This document shows, in pieces, positions 10,179 through 29,480 of a DNA stretch of 45,697 nt (its first letter is position 1; every line of letters begins with the position of its first letter). The notes under the pieces were generated by a model that worked only from the letters and a program-made list of their open reading frames with translations, ran no database searches and was not told where the DNA came from. Source of the stretch: Nocardioidaceae bacterium (GTDB taxonomy: Bacteria > Actinomycetota > Actinomycetes > Propionibacteriales > Nocardioidaceae); contig JAICWH010000008.1 of assembly GCA_025934895.1 (NCBI GenBank), positions 1 through 45,697 of the forward strand, read 5' to 3'. Both the position numbers and the translations under genes were made by a program.

Positions 10179-11135
10179 TCAGACGGGAAGCCGCGCGTCA
10201 GCAGCCGCTCCGACGGGGTGGCCGGGTCGCTCCCGCACGCTGAGGACCAGCCAGGTCACGGCGGCGGACACCAGCGCGGCCCCGAGCAGGTGGAACGCGA
10301 CGAGTACGACGGGGAGGTCGGTCGCGTACTGCACGAAGCCGACGAGGCCCTGGGCCAGCTCGACGAGCAGCAGGGCGGTCGCGGCGCGGCGCGCGAGCGC
10401 TGGGGCACCCGAGGCGTGCACCACGAGGACCACCGCGACGCTCAGGCCGAGCAGCAGGAACACCAGGTCGGCGTGCAGCTGGCTCAGCGCACGGGGGTCC
10501 AGACCGTTGCGGGGGGCATGCGCGTCGCCGGCGTGCGGCCCGGTGCCGGTGACCACCGTGCCGACGTACAGCACCGCCCAGGCCACCGCGAAGACCGCTC
10601 GGGTCAGCCGGACCACGCCGGCGGGCACGAGCGGTCGCGGTGGCCCGTCGCCCTCCCCGACCCGGCGCACCAGCGCGACCGCGAGCCCGACCATCGCCAG
10701 GGAGACCAGCAGGTGCAGGGACACCACCCACGGGTTGAGGTCGGTGAGCACGGCGACACCGCCGATCACTGCCTGGGCGGGGACGCCCAGCGCGAGGAGA
10801 AGCGCGAGCCGCAGCACGGCGGACCGCCGGTAGCGCCAGGCCAGCACGAACGTCGCGACCGCCACCGCGGCGACCGCGAAGGTGAGCATCCGGTTGCTGA
10901 ACTCGATGGCGCTGTGCACCCCCATCGCTCGGTGCGGCACGAAGGACGCGCCGGTGCACCGCGGCCAGGTCGGGCAGCCCAGGCCCGACCCGGTGAGCCG
11001 CACCACGCCACCGGTCACGACGATCAGGATGTTGGCCACCAGCGACGCCACGGCAGCCCGCGGCATCCAGGTCAGCAGCCACGTCGGCCGGCTCCGCGGG
11101 ACCGTCTGCAGCGCCTCGCGCACGTCGACAACCAC
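10179..11135 (-). CDS. ctaA: Heme A synthase (CtaA/COX15 family)
   Basis: Integral membrane enzyme that oxidises the heme O methyl group to give heme A for aa3-type cytochrome oxidase. The 318-aa protein has eight predicted hydrophobic segments and the conserved heme/substrate features VVRLTGSGLGCPTWPRC, HSAIEFSNR, a histidine in SLHLLVSL, QLHADL and AFHLLGAAL. Two cysteines lie in the first extracytoplasmic loop as in COX15/CtaA type proteins. GTG start at 11135, 4 nt after the oleD stop; it therefore seems to be the last gene of the ole transcript or to have a promoter inside oleD. Confidence 0.92.
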   Translation of the reverse strand: MVVDVREALQTVPRSRPTWLLTWMPRAAVASLVANILIVVTGGVVRLTGSGLGCPTWPRCTGASFVPHRAMGVHSAIEFSNRMLTFAVAAVAVATFVLAWRYRRSAVLRLALLLALGVPAQAVIGGVAVLTDLNPWVVSLHLLVSLAMVGLAVALVRRVGEGDGPPRPLVPAGVVRLTRAVFAVAWAVLYVGTVVTGTGPHAGDAHAPRNGLDPRALSQLHADLVFLLLGLSVAVVLVVHASGAPALARRAATALLLVELAQGLVGFVQYATDLPVVLVAFHLLGAALVSAAVTWLVLSVRERPGHPVGAAADARLPV

Positions 11136-11139
11136 GACC

Positions 11140-12123
11140 TCAGGCTACCGGGGGCTGCCCGGCGGCGTACCACTCGGCCAGCCTGGCGAACCCCGCGTCC
11201 AGGTCGACCTGTGGGGTCCAGCCGAGCACCTGTCGGGTGCGCCGCTGGTCGAACCAATGCGCAGTGGACAGCTGCTCGGCCAGGAACCGGGTGATCGGCG
11301 GGGTCTCCTGGCAGCCGGTGACCGCCCAGATGCCGTCCACGGCCGCTCCGGCGAGCCGGGCCAGCCGCACCGGGACCTGCAGGTGGGGCGCCGGGACGGC
11401 GGCCGCCCGGCACAGCCGTGCCAGCACCTCCCGGACCGGCCGGGGCTCACCGTTCGACACCACCAGCGCCTCGCCGTGCGCTCGACCGCAGGCGTCCACC
11501 GCCGCCATCAGCGCGGCGGCCGCGTTCGCGACGTAGGTGGTGTCGATCAGCGCGGTGCCGTGCCCCAGCAGCGGCAGCCGGCCGGCGCCCGCCCGTGCCA
11601 CGAGGCGGCCGACCAGCTGGGTGTCACCGGGACCCCAGACCAGGTGCGGGCGGATCACCAGGACCGCCAGTGCGGCGGTGTCCGCAGCGAGGGCGAGCTG
11701 TTCGGCGACCGCCTTGGAGCGCGCGTAGTGCCCGCGGGCCGTCCCGGGATCCGCCGGCTCGGCCCCCGCTCCGACCAGCGACCGTCCCGCGTGCGCCACC
11801 GACGGCGACGACACGTGCACCAGCCGCGGGACTGCGAGCCGGCGGCAGGCCTCCACCAGGGTGCGGGTGCCCTCGATGTTGGCGTGCGCGTAGTCCGGCC
11901 ACCGGCCCACCACGTCGACCTTGGCGGCGAGGTGCAGCACGGCGTCCCGGCCGACCGCGGCGCGGAGCACGGCGGTGGGGTCCGCGACGTCGCCGAGGAC
12001 CTCCCGGCACGCGAGCCCGGAGGGTCGTCGCTGCAGGACGCAGACGTCGTCGCCGCGTTCGATGAGCGCCTGCGCGGTGGTCCGGCCGAGCATCCCGCTG
12101 GCGCCGGTCAGCAGCACCTTCAC
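11140..12123 (-). CDS. oleD: OleD-type NAD(P)-dependent 2-alkyl-3-oxoalkanoate reductase
   Basis: Extended SDR/3-beta-hydroxysteroid-dehydrogenase family enzyme. In olefin biosynthesis OleD reduces the 2-alkyl-3-ketoacid from OleA to the beta-hydroxy acid. The 327-aa protein begins MKVLLTGASGMLGRTTAQAL (TGxxGxxG nucleotide loop, residues 6-13), has HLAAKVDVVG, the Ser of HVSSPS and YARSK as the YxxxK catalytic pair. The GTG start overlaps the oleBC stop as GTGA. Assignment to OleD rather than a generic epimerase rests on family features plus the adjoining oleA and oleBC. Confidence 0.85.
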   Translation of the reverse strand: MKVLLTGASGMLGRTTAQALIERGDDVCVLQRRPSGLACREVLGDVADPTAVLRAAVGRDAVLHLAAKVDVVGRWPDYAHANIEGTRTLVEACRRLAVPRLVHVSSPSVAHAGRSLVGAGAEPADPGTARGHYARSKAVAEQLALAADTAALAVLVIRPHLVWGPGDTQLVGRLVARAGAGRLPLLGHGTALIDTTYVANAAAALMAAVDACGRAHGEALVVSNGEPRPVREVLARLCRAAAVPAPHLQVPVRLARLAGAAVDGIWAVTGCQETPPITRFLAEQLSTAHWFDQRRTRQVLGWTPQVDLDAGFARLAEWYAAGQPPVA

Positions 12124-14684
12124 GACGGCAGGGCACCTGCGAGGACGCGCGCGACCCGGGTGGCGACCCGCTGTCGGTCCACCTTCGAGGCGTGCCGGAT
12201 GTCCAGCGGCAGCCGCGAGGCGGTGAGGACGGCCGCGACCTCGGTTCCAGCGGCGGCCCGGACCGCCTCGGCCAGCCGCCGCTCCGCGAGTCGCATCCGG
12301 TCGCGTCGGGGACCACCGCTGGTGGGCACGACCACCAGCGCGACGACCTGCGTGCCCGCGGGCCCGACGCCGACGGCCGCGGCGGCCCGGACCTGCGGGA
12401 GGCGCTCGACGCGCTGCTCGACGCCGACCGGGGTGAGCACGCCGTGCGCGGTGGTGATGACATGCTGCAGCCGGCCCTCCACCCAGAGCCGGCCGTCGTG
12501 GTCGAGGTGCCCGACGTCACCGGTGCGGTGCCAGCCAGGGTCGCGGGAGCTGCTGCGCTCGGTCAGCCACAGCTGGTCGTAGCGGTCCTTGACGTGCCCG
12601 GCGCGCACGCAGATCTCACCGGTGCGGTCCGGCTCGCTGGTCAGCGGTCCTTCCGCCGTGCCGAGCGGGGTCAGCGGGCTGAGCGCCACCTCGACGGACG
12701 GCAGCGGCCGGCCCACGCACACGCCCTCACCGTCGCCGGCCTCGACGATCTCCTTCAGCGACACGTCGGTGACCGGCAGCGCCTCGGTCATCCCGTAGGG
12801 GGTGTGCGCCTCGGCGGCGGGCAGGACGCCGCTCAGCGACTCGAGCAGCGGAACCGGCACCGGGGCCCCCGCCGACATCAGCAGCCGCACCCGGCCCAGC
12901 GCCGTGGTCTGCTGCTGCGTCAGCCCGGCGGAGGTGGCCGCGACGTTGCGCAGCGCCGCGGGTGAGGCGAACACGACCGTGGCGTCGACGGCCGCCGCCG
13001 CGTCGGCCAGTGCGCCGGCGGTCAGGGTGCCCGGGGCCGTGACGTCGATGTCGGGCACAGCCGACCCGATCCCGAGGGCCGGGCCGAGGAGGGCGAAGGG
13101 GGCGAAGGCGGCGACGAGCCGGTCGTCGGAGGTGATGCCGTAGGTCGAGCGCAGCAGGTCGATCTGGGCCACCACCTGCTGGTGCCGGTAGACGACCCCC
13201 TTGGCCGGCCCGGTCGCGCCGGAGGTGAACACGACGGCACAGTCGCGATCGGTGGCCGGCTCCGCCGGCATCGGTCCGGTGGCCCCCTTGTGCGCGAGCT
13301 CCTCGAGGGTGTGCCACACCCCGAGGGCCCGGCTCAGCGGGAGGGGCAGCCGTCCGACGGCGATCCGGCTGCCGGGCAGCCGCATCAGGCGGGCAGCCGT
13401 CAGGCCGGGCACGGCGCCGACCAGGTGGTCCGGCGCGGCACCGCGCAGCGCCCGGCGCATCCCGGCGAAGCCGAGGCCCTTGTCGGCGACGACGATGACC
13501 GCCCCCATCCGCCACGCGGCGTAGACGACGGCAGTGAGGTCGGCGGACGGCTCCATCAGCAGGCCGATCCGGTCGCCGGGCCGGATCCCTGCGGACACCA
13601 TGCCGGCAGCGAGCTCGCGGACCCGGCGGTTCAGGGCGGCCCAGCTCACCCGGGCGCCTGCGACCTCGACGACAGCCGGGGTGGGGTCCCCCGCACGCTC
13701 CTCGAGCGCCGACCACAGGGAGCCGTTGGCCCGCTGGGCGAGCGGAGCGTGCGACCCCGCGTCGCCCGTGTCCGCCGTGAGGTCCTCGGCCCACTGCGCC
13801 ACCGCCGCGGCATAGCCGGGAGCGTCCTCGGTGACCAGGTGCGAGGCACCGTCGAAGCGGTGCACGCGTGCCTGCGGCAGCCGCTGCCTCAGGTCGGCGA
13901 GGTACCGCTCCCCGAAGACCGGGTCCCGCGGTCCCCACAGCAGCAGGGCCGGCACGTCGAGCGACCGCATGCCCGAGGCGATCGCCTCGATGCTCGGCCG
14001 GGACGGGTGGTGGGGCGCGAACGGGATGTCCGCGACGAAGTCACCCACGGACCGACGCTGGTGCCGGCTCGTGTACGGCGCGGCCAGCGCCCGTCGTACG
14101 TCACGGGGCAGCCTCGGGACCGACAGGGCACTGGTCGCGCGCACGAACAGGGGGGTCCGCACGCAGGCCAGCTCCCGGATCCACGGCACGTGAGCCAGCC
14201 GGATCAGGACCGGCCCGCGGTCGCCGGGCGGCTGCTCGACAGCGGTGTTCGCGAGCACCACGCCACGGACCTGGTCGCGGTGGGCGAGGGCCCAGCCCAG
14301 CGAGACCGCACCGCCCCAGTCGTGGCCGACGGTGACCACCGGGCCGGCGATGCCGAGGGCCGCCGTGAGGGTGCCGAGGTCGTCGACCCGTTGGCCGAGC
14401 AACCGGGGTGTCGTGAGCCGGTCCGACCAGCCCATCCCGAGCTGGTCCGGCGCCACCACCCGCCAGCCGGCAGGCGCAGCCCCGAGAAGGCCGCGCCACA
14501 GGTAGGACCACGTCGGGTTGCCGTGCACGCACAGCAGCGTGCCCCGGCTCGGCTCGACCCCGTTGTCCAGCAGGTGCCAGCAGCGGGGCACCCCGTCGGG
14601 GTCCGGCACCGTGACGGTGCGCGACCAGGCGAGGTCCACGCCCGGCAGGTCCGGGCCGGCCGTGGCGGTGGGACGCCGCCTCAC
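12120..14684 (-). CDS. oleBC: OleBC fusion: beta-lactone decarboxylase + beta-lactone synthetase
   Basis: One 854-aa protein with two enzymes. Residues about 20-305 are an alpha/beta hydrolase of the haloalkane-dehalogenase type (OleB): HGNPT oxyanion loop at 54-58, nucleophile Asp122 in VGHDWGG, acid Asp254 in GPRDPVFG, and His282 in ASHLVTED; it decarboxylates a cis-beta-lactone to an alkene. Residues about 320-854 are an adenylate-forming enzyme (OleC): VVFTSGATGPAKGV at about 485-498, TPYGMTEALP, WHRTGDVGHLD and the C-terminal HASKVDRQR lysine; it makes the beta-lactone from the beta-hydroxy acid. The GTG start (14684) overlaps the oleA stop as GTGA. OleB-OleC fusions are known in actinobacteria such as Micrococcus. 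Confidence 0.9.
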   Translation of the reverse strand: MRRRPTATAGPDLPGVDLAWSRTVTVPDPDGVPRCWHLLDNGVEPSRGTLLCVHGNPTWSYLWRGLLGAAPAGWRVVAPDQLGMGWSDRLTTPRLLGQRVDDLGTLTAALGIAGPVVTVGHDWGGAVSLGWALAHRDQVRGVVLANTAVEQPPGDRGPVLIRLAHVPWIRELACVRTPLFVRATSALSVPRLPRDVRRALAAPYTSRHQRRSVGDFVADIPFAPHHPSRPSIEAIASGMRSLDVPALLLWGPRDPVFGERYLADLRQRLPQARVHRFDGASHLVTEDAPGYAAAVAQWAEDLTADTGDAGSHAPLAQRANGSLWSALEERAGDPTPAVVEVAGARVSWAALNRRVRELAAGMVSAGIRPGDRIGLLMEPSADLTAVVYAAWRMGAVIVVADKGLGFAGMRRALRGAAPDHLVGAVPGLTAARLMRLPGSRIAVGRLPLPLSRALGVWHTLEELAHKGATGPMPAEPATDRDCAVVFTSGATGPAKGVVYRHQQVVAQIDLLRSTYGITSDDRLVAAFAPFALLGPALGIGSAVPDIDVTAPGTLTAGALADAAAAVDATVVFASPAALRNVAATSAGLTQQQTTALGRVRLLMSAGAPVPVPLLESLSGVLPAAEAHTPYGMTEALPVTDVSLKEIVEAGDGEGVCVGRPLPSVEVALSPLTPLGTAEGPLTSEPDRTGEICVRAGHVKDRYDQLWLTERSSSRDPGWHRTGDVGHLDHDGRLWVEGRLQHVITTAHGVLTPVGVEQRVERLPQVRAAAAVGVGPAGTQVVALVVVPTSGGPRRDRMRLAERRLAEAVRAAAGTEVAAVLTASRLPLDIRHASKVDRQRVATRVARVLAGALPS

Positions 14685-15706
14685 CAGACGATCTCGAGGC
14701 AGGACGCGTTCAGCCCGGACCCGATGCCCATCAGGAGGATGCGGTCCCCCTCGTCGAGGTCGTCGACCTCGCCGGCCAGCGTGAACGGCACCGAGACGGG
14801 GCCGATGTTGCCGCGGTCCGGGAAGGTCCTCGGCACCCGGTCCGGGTCGATGCCGAGCCGCTTGCACAGCGCGTCGGTGTGCACCTGGGAGATCTGGTGG
14901 ATGACGTAGCGGCTGATGCCCTGGTTCCAGCCGAACTCCTGGGCGGCGTCGGCCCACAGGTCCGCGGAGAGCTGCAGGCCGGCGTCGAGGAGACCCTTGA
15001 GGTCGGTCTGCATCAGGTCGTTGTCCCCGACGCACAGCTGGTGGTGCTCGGTGCCGGCCCGGCTCACCGCACCGACGACCCGGTGCCCCTCGGGGTGCTG
15101 GTCGGCGCGCCCGAGGACCATCGCGACCGCACCCGAGCCGAGGGTGAGCGTCGCGAACTGGGCCACCACGTCCTTGGCGGTGACGTCCGCACCGGACAGC
15201 CGCGCGATGGTCGCCTCCTGCACCCCCCGGGCGTCCTCTCCGTTGACGACCAGGGCGTAGTCCACCAGGCCCGCGTCGATCATGGCAGCGGCGATCTCGA
15301 TGCCGTTGACGAAGCCCAGGCAGGCGTTGGTGACGTCGAAGTTCTGGCACGAGGACGGCAGCCCGATCGCGTCGTGCACCGCCACGGCGGTGGCGGGCTC
15401 CAGCGCGGCCCGGCTGACCGAGGTGTTGACCATGAGCCCGATCGCGGCGGGGTCCACCCCGCTCTCGGAGATCGCCTTGGCCCCGGCGGTCGCAGCTCCG
15501 TCGACGAAGGAGACACCGTCCGGCCACCAGCGCCGCTCCCGGATCCCGGCGAGCCGCTCCAGAAGGCCGGGACGCAGCCCGACCCGCTGGTAGGTCTGCG
15601 CGAGCCGCTCGTCGAGCTCGTCGGAGGTGACCACGCGTGGGGCGTCGACCCTGCTCACCGTCAGCAGGGCGGTGTTGCGAAAACGGTGCGTGGTGTTCCC
15701 GGTCAC
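14681..15706 (-). CDS. oleA: OleA: head-to-head fatty acyl-CoA condensing thiolase
   Basis: Joins two fatty acyl-CoA molecules in a non-decarboxylative Claisen condensation to give a 2-alkyl-3-ketoacid, the first step to long-chain olefins. The 341-aa protein has the thiolase-fold catalytic set: Cys129 in TNACLGF, His270 in VIHQISQVH and Asn300 in RGNIGP, plus Glu103 (ALEPATA) where OleA uses a Glu from the partner subunit. KAS III-like proteins lack that Glu, supporting OleA. Start GTG 15706 gives a family-typical length; GGGA lies upstream. It lies 89 bp after the ABC permease stop and is coupled to oleBC. Confidence 0.9.
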   Translation of the reverse strand: MTGNTTHRFRNTALLTVSRVDAPRVVTSDELDERLAQTYQRVGLRPGLLERLAGIRERRWWPDGVSFVDGAATAGAKAISESGVDPAAIGLMVNTSVSRAALEPATAVAVHDAIGLPSSCQNFDVTNACLGFVNGIEIAAAMIDAGLVDYALVVNGEDARGVQEATIARLSGADVTAKDVVAQFATLTLGSGAVAMVLGRADQHPEGHRVVGAVSRAGTEHHQLCVGDNDLMQTDLKGLLDAGLQLSADLWADAAQEFGWNQGISRYVIHQISQVHTDALCKRLGIDPDRVPRTFPDRGNIGPVSVPFTLAGEVDDLDEGDRILLMGIGSGLNASCLEIVW

Positions 15707-15795
15707 GTCCTGGTCCCTATCCGATCTCAGCCGAGCCTGGGGAGCTGCCGGAGCTCGTGGCACGGTCCTGATGGTTCTACCCGCTGGCGGGCGGG

Positions 15796-16589
15796 TCACT
15801 CCCATCTGAACGTCCGCACGGTGAGCAACGTGCCGAGGACCGTCCAGGCGGCCAGCACGAGCAAGGGTCCCACCGCGAAGCCGCCGGTCAGCAGCGCCGT
15901 ACGCATGCCCGAGCCGAGCGCCCCGGAGGGCAGCAGGGCGAGCGCCCTGCCGGCGGGGCCGTAGGAGTCGGTCGGGAAGACCACGGCGCCGCCCGCGAGC
16001 AGCAGCAGGTAGATCAGGTTCGCCGCCGCGAGCGTCGCCTCCGCGCGCAGGGCGCCGGCGACGAGCAGTCCGAGCGAGGCGAACGCCGCTGTGCCGACCA
16101 GCACGCAGGCGAGGACGCCCAGGAGCCCGGGCGCGGAGACGGCGGGCGACCAGCCGAGGAGACCTGCCACGGCGCCGATCACCACGAACTGCAGGACCTC
16201 CACGACCAGCAGCGCGCCGACCTTGCCGGCGAGCAGGCCGGACCGGGGCAGTGGCGAGGAGCCGAGCCGCTTCAGGACGCCGTAGCGGCGCTCGAAGCCG
16301 GTGGCGATCGCCAGCGATGTGAAGCTGGTGGACAGCACCGCGAGGGCGAGGACGCCGGGAGTCAGCGTGTCGACCGGGCTGTGGGAGAACGTGAGGCCGA
16401 CGTGCCGGGCGGCGGTGATCCCGCCGACGAGCACGATCAGCGGCACCACGACGGCCAGCACCAGCTGCTCCCCGTTGCGGAGCAGCAGCCGGGTCTCCAT
16501 CCGGGCCTGGGCGAGCACCATCCGGGGCAGGGGGGCCGCGCCCGGCCGGGGGCTGAAGGCGCCGCGACGAGCCGGGGTCGTCGGGCACG

Positions 16590-16593
<4 letters not shown>
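15796..16593 (-). CDS. ABC-2 type transporter permease
   Basis: Membrane subunit (265 aa, about six hydrophobic helices) of an ABC exporter with the ATPase encoded just upstream; ATG overlaps the ATPase stop as ATGA. It has the ABC-2 permease style: short N-terminal cytoplasmic part, ERRYGVLKRLGSSPLPR coupling region between helices 2 and 3, and a final helix ending in VRTFRWE. Substrate unknown. Homologues next to ctaA and sufR occur in mycobacteria. It precedes oleA by 89 bp in the same direction, so it could be read with the ole genes. Confidence 0.88.
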
Positions 16594-17543
<950 letters not shown>

Positions 17544-17555: not shown

Positions 17556-17677
17556 GGAACCCCCGCCCACCCCGCCCGCCCGAACCGGCCCCGACGTGAC
17601 CAGGGACATACCGCAGCTCTGGCCACCGAGGCGTGGGCGGCGGGTCGCAGCCGGGCGCCGAGTTAGGTCTGCCTTAT

Positions 17678-17715
17678 TTGAACCCGGCCCGCAATAACGA
17701 CACAATGGTGTTGTG
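17678..17715 (+). promoter_or_regulatory. sufR promoter with overlapping candidate SufR operator
   Basis: TTGAAC (17678-17683), a 17-nt spacer and CACAAT (17701-17706) form a promoter whose transcript would begin at the GTG start codon 17713. A perfect inverted repeat CACAA-N5-TTGTG (17701-17715) covers the -10 box, the start point and the start codon, an ideal position for autorepression. Synechocystis SufR is reported to bind CAAC-N6-GTTG; this site is similar but not the same, so the operator role is inferred. Confidence 0.6.
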
Positions 17716-18492
17716 GAAATGCTGGAGCGGACGGCGGAGGTCGACGGTCCGACCCGTCAGCGGGTGGCCCGCACCCTGCTGGAGCTCGGCCCGAGCACGG
17801 CGGCCGTCCTGGCCGACCGCCTCCGGCTCACCCCGGCCGCGGTCCGCCGGCACCTGGACCACATGGTCACCGAGGGCGCCGTCGAGGCCCGCCAGCCACG
17901 CGTGCACGGCACCCGCGGGCGCGGCCGCCCCGCCAAGCTGTTCGCGATCACCGACCTGGGGCGGGATCGCTTCGACCAGCAGTACGACGACCTGGCGGTC
18001 CAGGCTCTCCGGTTCCTCGAGGAGACCGGGGGCGGCGCCGCGGTGCTCGAGTTCGCCCGCCGCCGGGTGGCCCCCATCGAGCAGCACTTCGACCAGATCG
18101 TCGCGGCCGACCCGAAGCTGGCCCCGTCCCAGGCGTTGGCGCGGGCCCTGACCCAGGGCGGCTACTCTGCCTCGGTGCGACAGGGCCCCGTGGGGGAGCA
18201 GCTGTGCCAGCAGCACTGTCCCGTCTCCCACGTCGCCCACGAGTTCCCGCAGCTGTGCGAGGCCGAGACCGAGGTCATCTCCAGGGTCCTCGGCCGACAC
18301 GTGCAGCGGCTGGCCACCATCGCCCACGGCGACGGGGTCTGCACGACCTGCATTCCAGCCATCCCCAGCAGTCCGGCCATCCCCAGCAGTCCGGCCATCC
18401 CCGGCGCCGTCGCCGGGGCGACCCGCACCGACGAGCCATCAGCATCGCACCCACCCGCACGGTCCAGAGCACACGAGAGGCTGACCTCATGA
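17713..18492 (+). CDS. sufR: SufR, Fe-S cluster-sensing repressor of the suf operon
   Basis: Winged-helix regulator that holds an Fe-S cluster and represses suf genes when clusters are sufficient. The 259-aa protein has an N-terminal HTH ([20 protein letters not shown], residues 29-48), a wing with GRGRPAKLF (69-77), a helical middle and a cysteine cluster: C165, C169, C182 (LCEAE) and C210, C213 (GDGVCTTC). Conserved ligands are probably C169, C182 and C210. The C-terminus adds a low-complexity tail with two copies of AIPSSP and a third partial copy. The GTG start seems leaderless. The stop overlaps the sufB start as ATGA. Confidence 0.9.
18358..18404 (+). repeat. sufR: 18-bp tandem repeat in the sufR 3' end
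   Basis: GCCATCCCCAGCAGTCCG is present twice in tandem (18358-18393), with a partial third copy to 18404. It encodes AIPSSP repeats just after the last cysteines of SufR and is in frame, so copy-number changes would keep the sufB-coupled stop. Confidence 0.85.
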
Positions 18493-28697: not shown

Positions 28698-29480
28698 GTG
28701 TCCGAGCGGCCCGCTCCGCCGCCCCAGCTGGTCACCCGGCTGCGGGCCGCGGGCTGCGTGTTCGCCGAGGACGAGGCGACGCTCCTCGTGGAGGAGGCCC
28801 GCTCCCCCGACGAGTTGGCGGCGATGGTGGCTCGGCGGGTAGCCGGAGAGCCGCTGGAGCAGGTGGTCGGCTGGGCGGAGTTCTGCGGCCTGCGGGTCGT
28901 CGTCGCACCCGGCGTCTTCGTGCCGCGGCGCCGCACGGAGCTGATGGTGCGTGAGGCGGCCGCCGTGCTGGACGGGCTCGGGCACCCGGTCGCCGTCGAC
29001 CTGTGCTGCGGCTGCGGAGCGGTGGCGGCGGCGTTGCTGGACGCGCTGGCCGGCCTCGAGGTGCATGCGTGCGACATCGACCCGGCGGCAGTGGCGTGCG
29101 CCCGCCGCAACCTGCCCGCTGGGCGGGTCCACCACGGGGACCTCTTCGACGCCCTGCCGGCGCGGCTGAGGGGCCGGGTCGACGTGCTGACGGCCAACAC
29201 CCCCTACGTCCCGACCGGGGCGATCGCCACCATGCCTCCCGAGGCCCGCGACCACGAGCCGATGGTCGCCCTCGACGGTGGCCCTGACGGGCTCGACGTC
29301 GCGCGGCGCGTGGCGGCTGCGGCTTCCTCGTGGCTCACGGCCGGCGGCTCGCTGCTGGTCGAGACGAGCCAGCCGCAGGCACCGGTCCTGGCCGAGGTCT
29401 TCGCGGACCACCGGCTGGCTCCCCGTGTGGTCACCTCGCGGGAGCTGGACGCGACCGTGCTGGTCGGCCGGTCGCCCTGA
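28698..29480 (+). CDS. PrmC/HemK-related protein N5-glutamine methyltransferase-like enzyme
   Basis: Class I SAM methyltransferase of 260 aa. It has an N-terminal helical part with GEPLEQVVGWAEFCGLRV, the SAM loop DLCCGCGAVAAAL (residues 101-113), acidic ribose-binding HACDIDP and NTPYVP (N167-Y170) where true PrmC has NPPY. This matches the PrmC-related subfamily of unknown substrate. Canonical PrmC lies near prfA, not seen here. GTG start with a leaderless-type -10. Confidence 0.82.
   Translation: MSERPAPPPQLVTRLRAAGCVFAEDEATLLVEEARSPDELAAMVARRVAGEPLEQVVGWAEFCGLRVVVAPGVFVPRRRTELMVREAAAVLDGLGHPVAVDLCCGCGAVAAALLDALAGLEVHACDIDPAAVACARRNLPAGRVHHGDLFDALPARLRGRVDVLTANTPYVPTGAIATMPPEARDHEPMVALDGGPDGLDVARRVAAAASSWLTAGGSLLVETSQPQAPVLAEVFADHRLAPRVVTSRELDATVLVGRSP

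Follow-up and report, generated by a model that had tools for sequence, protein, structure and literature searches.

An olefin operon probably inserted between the ABC permease gene and ctaA in a sub-lineage of one Nocardioidaceae genus

The window, the whole 45,697-nucleotide stretch of Nocardioidaceae DNA analysed here, carries an oleA-oleBC-oleD cluster (11140-15706, minus strand) that is, with good confidence from sequence comparison, a complete actinobacterial-type olefin operon inserted between an ABC permease gene and ctaA in one sub-lineage of the genus. The OleA-OleBC-OleD enzymes are of a known pathway type; what is new is the insertion site, the wider taxonomic range and the predicted stress-type control. 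In the resulting arrangement, an operon for the predicted synthesis of long-chain membrane hydrocarbons is set between two housekeeping genes, and the locus offers a clean case of operon insertion at a junction of core genes, with both neighbours left intact.

The insertion site and its neighbours

The coordinates bear out the initial annotation, which had placed the three ole genes exactly between ctaA and the ABC exporter genes. At one end lies ctaA, encoding heme A synthase (10179-11135, minus strand; Pfam COX15-CtaA, E 1.6e-25), and at the other end lie the genes of an ABC-2 type permease (15796-16590, minus strand; Pfam ABC2_membrane_3) and a DrrA-like ABC ATPase (16590-17543, minus strand; TIGR01188, E 6e-61). 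The cluster had also been described as adjacent to sufR, which is in fact two genes away and corresponds to a plus-strand frame divergent from the ABC genes (17713-18492; TIGR02702, E 4e-18, below the cut-off); the minus-strand frame at 17674-18327 was rejected as sufR. The insert begins right after the permease stop and ends four bases short of the present ctaA start. The left junction is the spacer between the permease stop and the oleA start (15707-15795, minus strand), which is partly alignable with those of two genomes of the same genus, G296 and G297, where oleA adjoins the permease gene as it does here. The right junction comprises the four bases between the oleD stop and the GTG start of ctaA (11136-11139, minus strand), and the N-terminus of CtaA is replaced compared to that of the empty-site relatives. 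Six bases before this start, inspection rather than statistics revealed the -10-like hexamer TAGCCT (11142-11147, minus strand), and G297 has TACCCT at the same distance, likewise by inspection. The hexamer may be a leaderless promoter, and ctaA would now rely for expression either on a site of its own or on read-through.

Family searches detected no mobile-element gene (integrase or transposase) between ctaA and sufR, no repeat pair was found at the ends of the insert, and no tRNA target lies near it, the only tRNA of the window being at 29381. The insert therefore has none of these four hallmarks of a genomic island or mobile element. Given the absence of mobile-element genes between the flanks, we infer illegitimate or homologous recombination as the probable mover. 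The suggested check of codon usage and G+C content gave no signal in either direction: GC3 of the ole genes (0.93-0.96) is the same as that of the flanks, and composition is hence uninformative on a foreign origin.

Synteny favours the first of the two possibilities raised initially, namely insertion or lineage-specific retention. With abutting defined as permease and ctaA matches on one strand no more than 120 bases apart, the two genes abut in 112 of the 116 Nocardioidaceae genomes that have ctaA, with a median match gap of 42 nt. The four exceptions are this genome (4667 bases), G297 (two contigs, with ole beside the permease gene), G348 (two contigs) and G080, which is the only other family genome with an enlarged gap (G080:C3:627957-628480, 523 bases). 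In four genomes of the same genus (G194, G294, G110 and G295), the permease gene ends in GAGTGACC, which overlaps the start region of ctaA. These four and 13 further family genomes that were fetched have ctaA immediately after the permease gene and, wherever their contigs reach, retain the arrangement tkt, ctaB, ctaA, permease, ATPase, sufR, sufBDCS, the ole-free gene order that the initial annotation gave for M. tuberculosis. Since the ole-free junction is common to nearly all of the family genomes, it is presumably the ancestral as well as the common state. Compared to this tkt/ctaB/ctaA-ABC-sufR-sufBDCS core locus of Nocardioidaceae, the window keeps all flanking genes and their orientations, but has ctaA and the ABC permease gene separated by the inserted ole operon of 4.6 kb.

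A survey of the seven genomes of the genus found ole in four (this genome, designated G000, as well as G296, G297 and G194), and no ole in G294, G110 and G295. The ole-filled site is seen in this genome only, plus the permease side of G296 and G297. In G297, ctaA does not come after oleD, as contigs end and other genes intervene. An aldehyde dehydrogenase-like gene follows oleD there (L098 1-2240, L097 8900-14942), and ctaA is on a separate contig, where its neighbours are sugar-nucleotide, phosphoheptose isomerase and glycosyltransferase genes; this junction has thus changed again. The G194 cluster belongs to the same ole clade as that of the window and shares 72-80% identity with it, but is located elsewhere in its genome, beside a sugar-lactone oxidase-like gene; the ctaA site of G194 is empty, and neither of the two genes flanking its ole was found in this genome.

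In the gene tree of the core locus and rpoC (rpoB being absent from key bins), this genome pairs with G294 (97/99). A clade of G000, G296 and G297 was not rejected by the tree test (p 0.083), and the same clade with G194 added was rejected (p 4e-6). Because G294 is nearest in the gene tree and has an empty site, a single insertion requires either that ole was later lost from G294 or that the genus tree branches slightly differently. There is a little less than an even chance that ole was located elsewhere in the genus ancestor and then moved within the genome to the present site, which is a sub-case of insertion and compatible with the explanation preferred here. Such a move agrees with the sister operon at another site in G194, and with the ole protein identity of 75-87% between G000 and G297, which is like that of the flanking genes; but it needs several losses to account for the ole-free G294, G110 and G295, and transfer between species of the genus fits the same data.

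A SigB-type motif upstream of oleA

Upstream of oleA there is a SigB/SigF-type promoter-like site, GAGT-N15-GGGTA (15778-15801, minus strand), the -35-like GAGT of which is formed by the last codon of the permease gene plus the first stop base; the site thereby spans the insertion junction. It resembles the Streptomyces SigB consensus GNNTN-N14-16-GGGTAY (PMC5402319, PMC8346170), the difference being that GGGTA is followed by G here, and often in the clade, rather than by the C or T of the published consensus. As GNNT occurs at N14-16 in 21% of background GGGTA sites, the junction-spanning -35 may be due to chance.

Of the 29 distinct sequences of the Nocardioidaceae-Geodermatophilaceae clade, 24 carry the pattern GNNT-N14-16-GGGTA between -120 and -30, against an expectation of 0.39 from shuffles (sd 0.62, maximum 4, 500 rounds). 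In the other ole groups, 5/77 sequences have it. Because the motif had first been noticed on this set, it was also searched in held-out Geodermatophilaceae, where 29 of 34 non-redundant sequences possess it (shuffles 0.63, maximum 4). Moreover, the genome has genes for SigB/F/G-type sigma factors, two of which score over the cut-off. Control of the ole operon by a stress-type SigB promoter is thus a new and well-supported prediction, in which the operon would be transcribed from its own promoter at 15801-15778, with the -35-like half contributed by the permease stop region.

It is rather unlikely, about one chance in four, that the GGGTA motif is instead a remnant of common ancestry or the site of another regulator. 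The motif sequences are indeed related and their -35 part is degenerate; nevertheless, GGGTA together with G and T at -19 and -16 is kept while the rest of the upstream region is poorly conserved, and the held-out set agrees. Beyond the promoter itself, we tentatively propose, with confidence somewhat short of one half, that ole in Nocardioidaceae and Geodermatophilaceae belongs to a SigB/SigF stress regulon, that the olefins are a membrane component induced by osmotic or drying stress, and that the operon moves between sites together with its promoter, which would be completed here by the ABC stop region. There is, to our knowledge, no settled role for head-to-head olefins in bacteria, and one of the two families is known from deserts and stone. 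The conserved stress-type promoter in both families makes for a testable question, that is, whether olefins are raised by salt or drying via a SigB-family factor. In L171, L172, L179 and other Arthrobacter-group loci, the sequence conserved before oleA is GCATAGTTAA, suggesting another promoter type.

The ole genes and their predicted products

The gene oleA (14681-15706, minus strand), encoding an acyl-CoA condensing thiolase, matches NF006720 with 451.5 bits (cut-off 285), and no other gene in the whole genome matches the OleA family model. Its product aligns over the full length with the solved OleA of Xanthomonas campestris (3s21), with an E value of 4.4e-88, and residues E103, C129, H270 and N300 align to the active-site motifs of the latter. 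It also contains the OleA thiolase pattern EPxx[AS]x(14,18)DxxNACL (PMC7158056) in the form of EPATAVAVHDAIGLPSSCQNFDVTNACL at residue 103. The oleBC fusion (12120-14684, minus strand) encodes a beta-lactone decarboxylase joined to a beta-lactone synthetase, with the Pfam domains Abhydrolase_1 at 49-288 and AMP-binding at 335-698. The OleB part is an HLD-like alpha/beta hydrolase that keeps GHDWGG and the C-terminal histidine in alignment with haloalkane dehalogenases, and the OleC part matches NF045786 (olefin beta-lactone synthetase) with an E value of 3e-79, under the cut-off of the model. The product of oleD (11140-12123, minus strand), a 2-alkyl-3-oxoalkanoate reductase, is an extended SDR with TGASGMLG and YARSK, and finds its best NCBIfam match in NF042422 (E 3e-90, 303 bits), below the cut-off of 580. 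Olefin-pathway models are among the best matches of both sub-threshold proteins, OleA alone being above its NCBIfam cut-off; judging by the model names, the equivalog cut-offs for OleC and OleD were apparently set on Xanthomonas/Shewanella-type proteins. The frames of oleA, oleBC and oleD overlap by four bases each, all on the minus strand, and the OleB, OleC and OleD homologues are all encoded no more than 5 kb away from oleA, in an arrangement collinear with that of named ole loci. The earlier reading of the catalytic residues of OleA, OleB, OleC and OleD as intact holds, in that the active-site motifs are present by alignment and motif position; the residue roles are those general to the families.

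By homology, OleA would condense two fatty acyl-CoAs and OleD would reduce the 2-alkyl-3-ketoacid, after which the OleC part would close the beta-lactone and the OleB part would decarboxylate it to yield a long internal alkene; these are the activities that we infer for the Ole enzymes. It is improbable, at less than one chance in ten, that the product is a beta-lactone or another compound rather than an olefin. Actinobacterial oleACD clusters that lack oleB do make beta-lactones (PMC7064751), but here the OleB part is present in fused form with the motifs mentioned above, and fused oleBC genes are also known from oleABCD clusters (PMC7064751).

Taxonomic range and origin of the ole genes

Among 395 genomes sampled from the class, 47 carry ole genes, as do 59 of 112 Geodermatophilaceae genomes, and the OleA cut-off was passed in 26 of 294 Propionibacteriales genomes. 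Families were named from loci that are identical to records with a name, those of Nocardioides sp. zg-1308 and a Propionibacteriaceae bin, and from a Geodermatophilus contig. According to a published statement, Micrococcales is the sole Gram-positive order with oleABCD, which is contradicted by the presence of ole in Nocardioidaceae and Geodermatophilaceae; the known range of Gram-positive ole clusters is thereby widened beyond Micrococcales. The literature searched, of incomplete coverage, contained no report of ole in the families found here. The oleABCD of Micrococcus luteus and other Micrococcales (PMC7158056) has the oleA-oleBC-oleD order and the oleBC fusion in common with the window, and the Arthrobacter-group clusters share about 47-58% protein identity with it. 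By contrast, the host here is of Nocardioidaceae, the site is the permease/ctaA junction, and the SigB-type motif is rare in the Micrococcales group.

The joined OleA-OleBC-OleD tree gave a support of 99 for the genus clade and 98 for Nocardioidaceae, with Geodermatophilaceae, the ole of which forms one clade, as the sister group (99). The OleA phylogeny, a check proposed at the outset, leads to the same grouping: a tree of OleA alone also places Nocardioidaceae and Geodermatophilaceae in a joint clade, with poor resolution inside it. A single clade of Propionibacteriales Ole was rejected (p 1.5e-37) with a test set that takes in G159. Since the sister of the Nocardioidaceae Ole proteins belongs to another order, an old transfer between the two families is likely, in either direction. 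Geodermatophilaceae ole is the nearest outside the family, with an OleA identity of 73-79% and the promoter motif common to both, but it resides at different genomic sites without ctaA, suf or tkt neighbours. Plasmid carriage was considered and rejected, as no close relative is on plasmids (best identity 31%).

Had ole been at this site in most actinobacteria, the arrangement would have counted as ancestral; yet none of the 105 other ole loci, comprising 25 from other Propionibacteriales and 80 named loci, is located at the permease-ctaA site, and no neighbourhood in common with them was identified. Descent from a common ancestor with ole at the site, followed by loss from most lineages, is thus highly improbable: patchy loss of the pathway is plausible in view of the single Ole clade in Nocardioidaceae and in the genus, but repeated exact losses restoring the tight junction of 112/116 genomes, with overlapping frames in the genus mates, are unlikely.

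Small groups of Propionibacteriaceae share ole sites of their own. Three groups of Propionibacteriales loci (L055/L057/L058, L053/L054/L056 and L040/L045) each have a conserved ole neighbourhood of their own, and the sites differ between the groups. In the Propionibacteriaceae locus L035 (G159), ole groups with Ornithinimicrobium instead of its own family, likely reflecting a transfer between orders. Finally, L059-L062, from four Propionibacteriales genomes (G173, G284, G035 and G230), contain distant OleA-like genes of 28-30% identity with an oleD-like gene nearby and, in one of the four, an oleC-like gene; they are possibly beta-lactone clusters.
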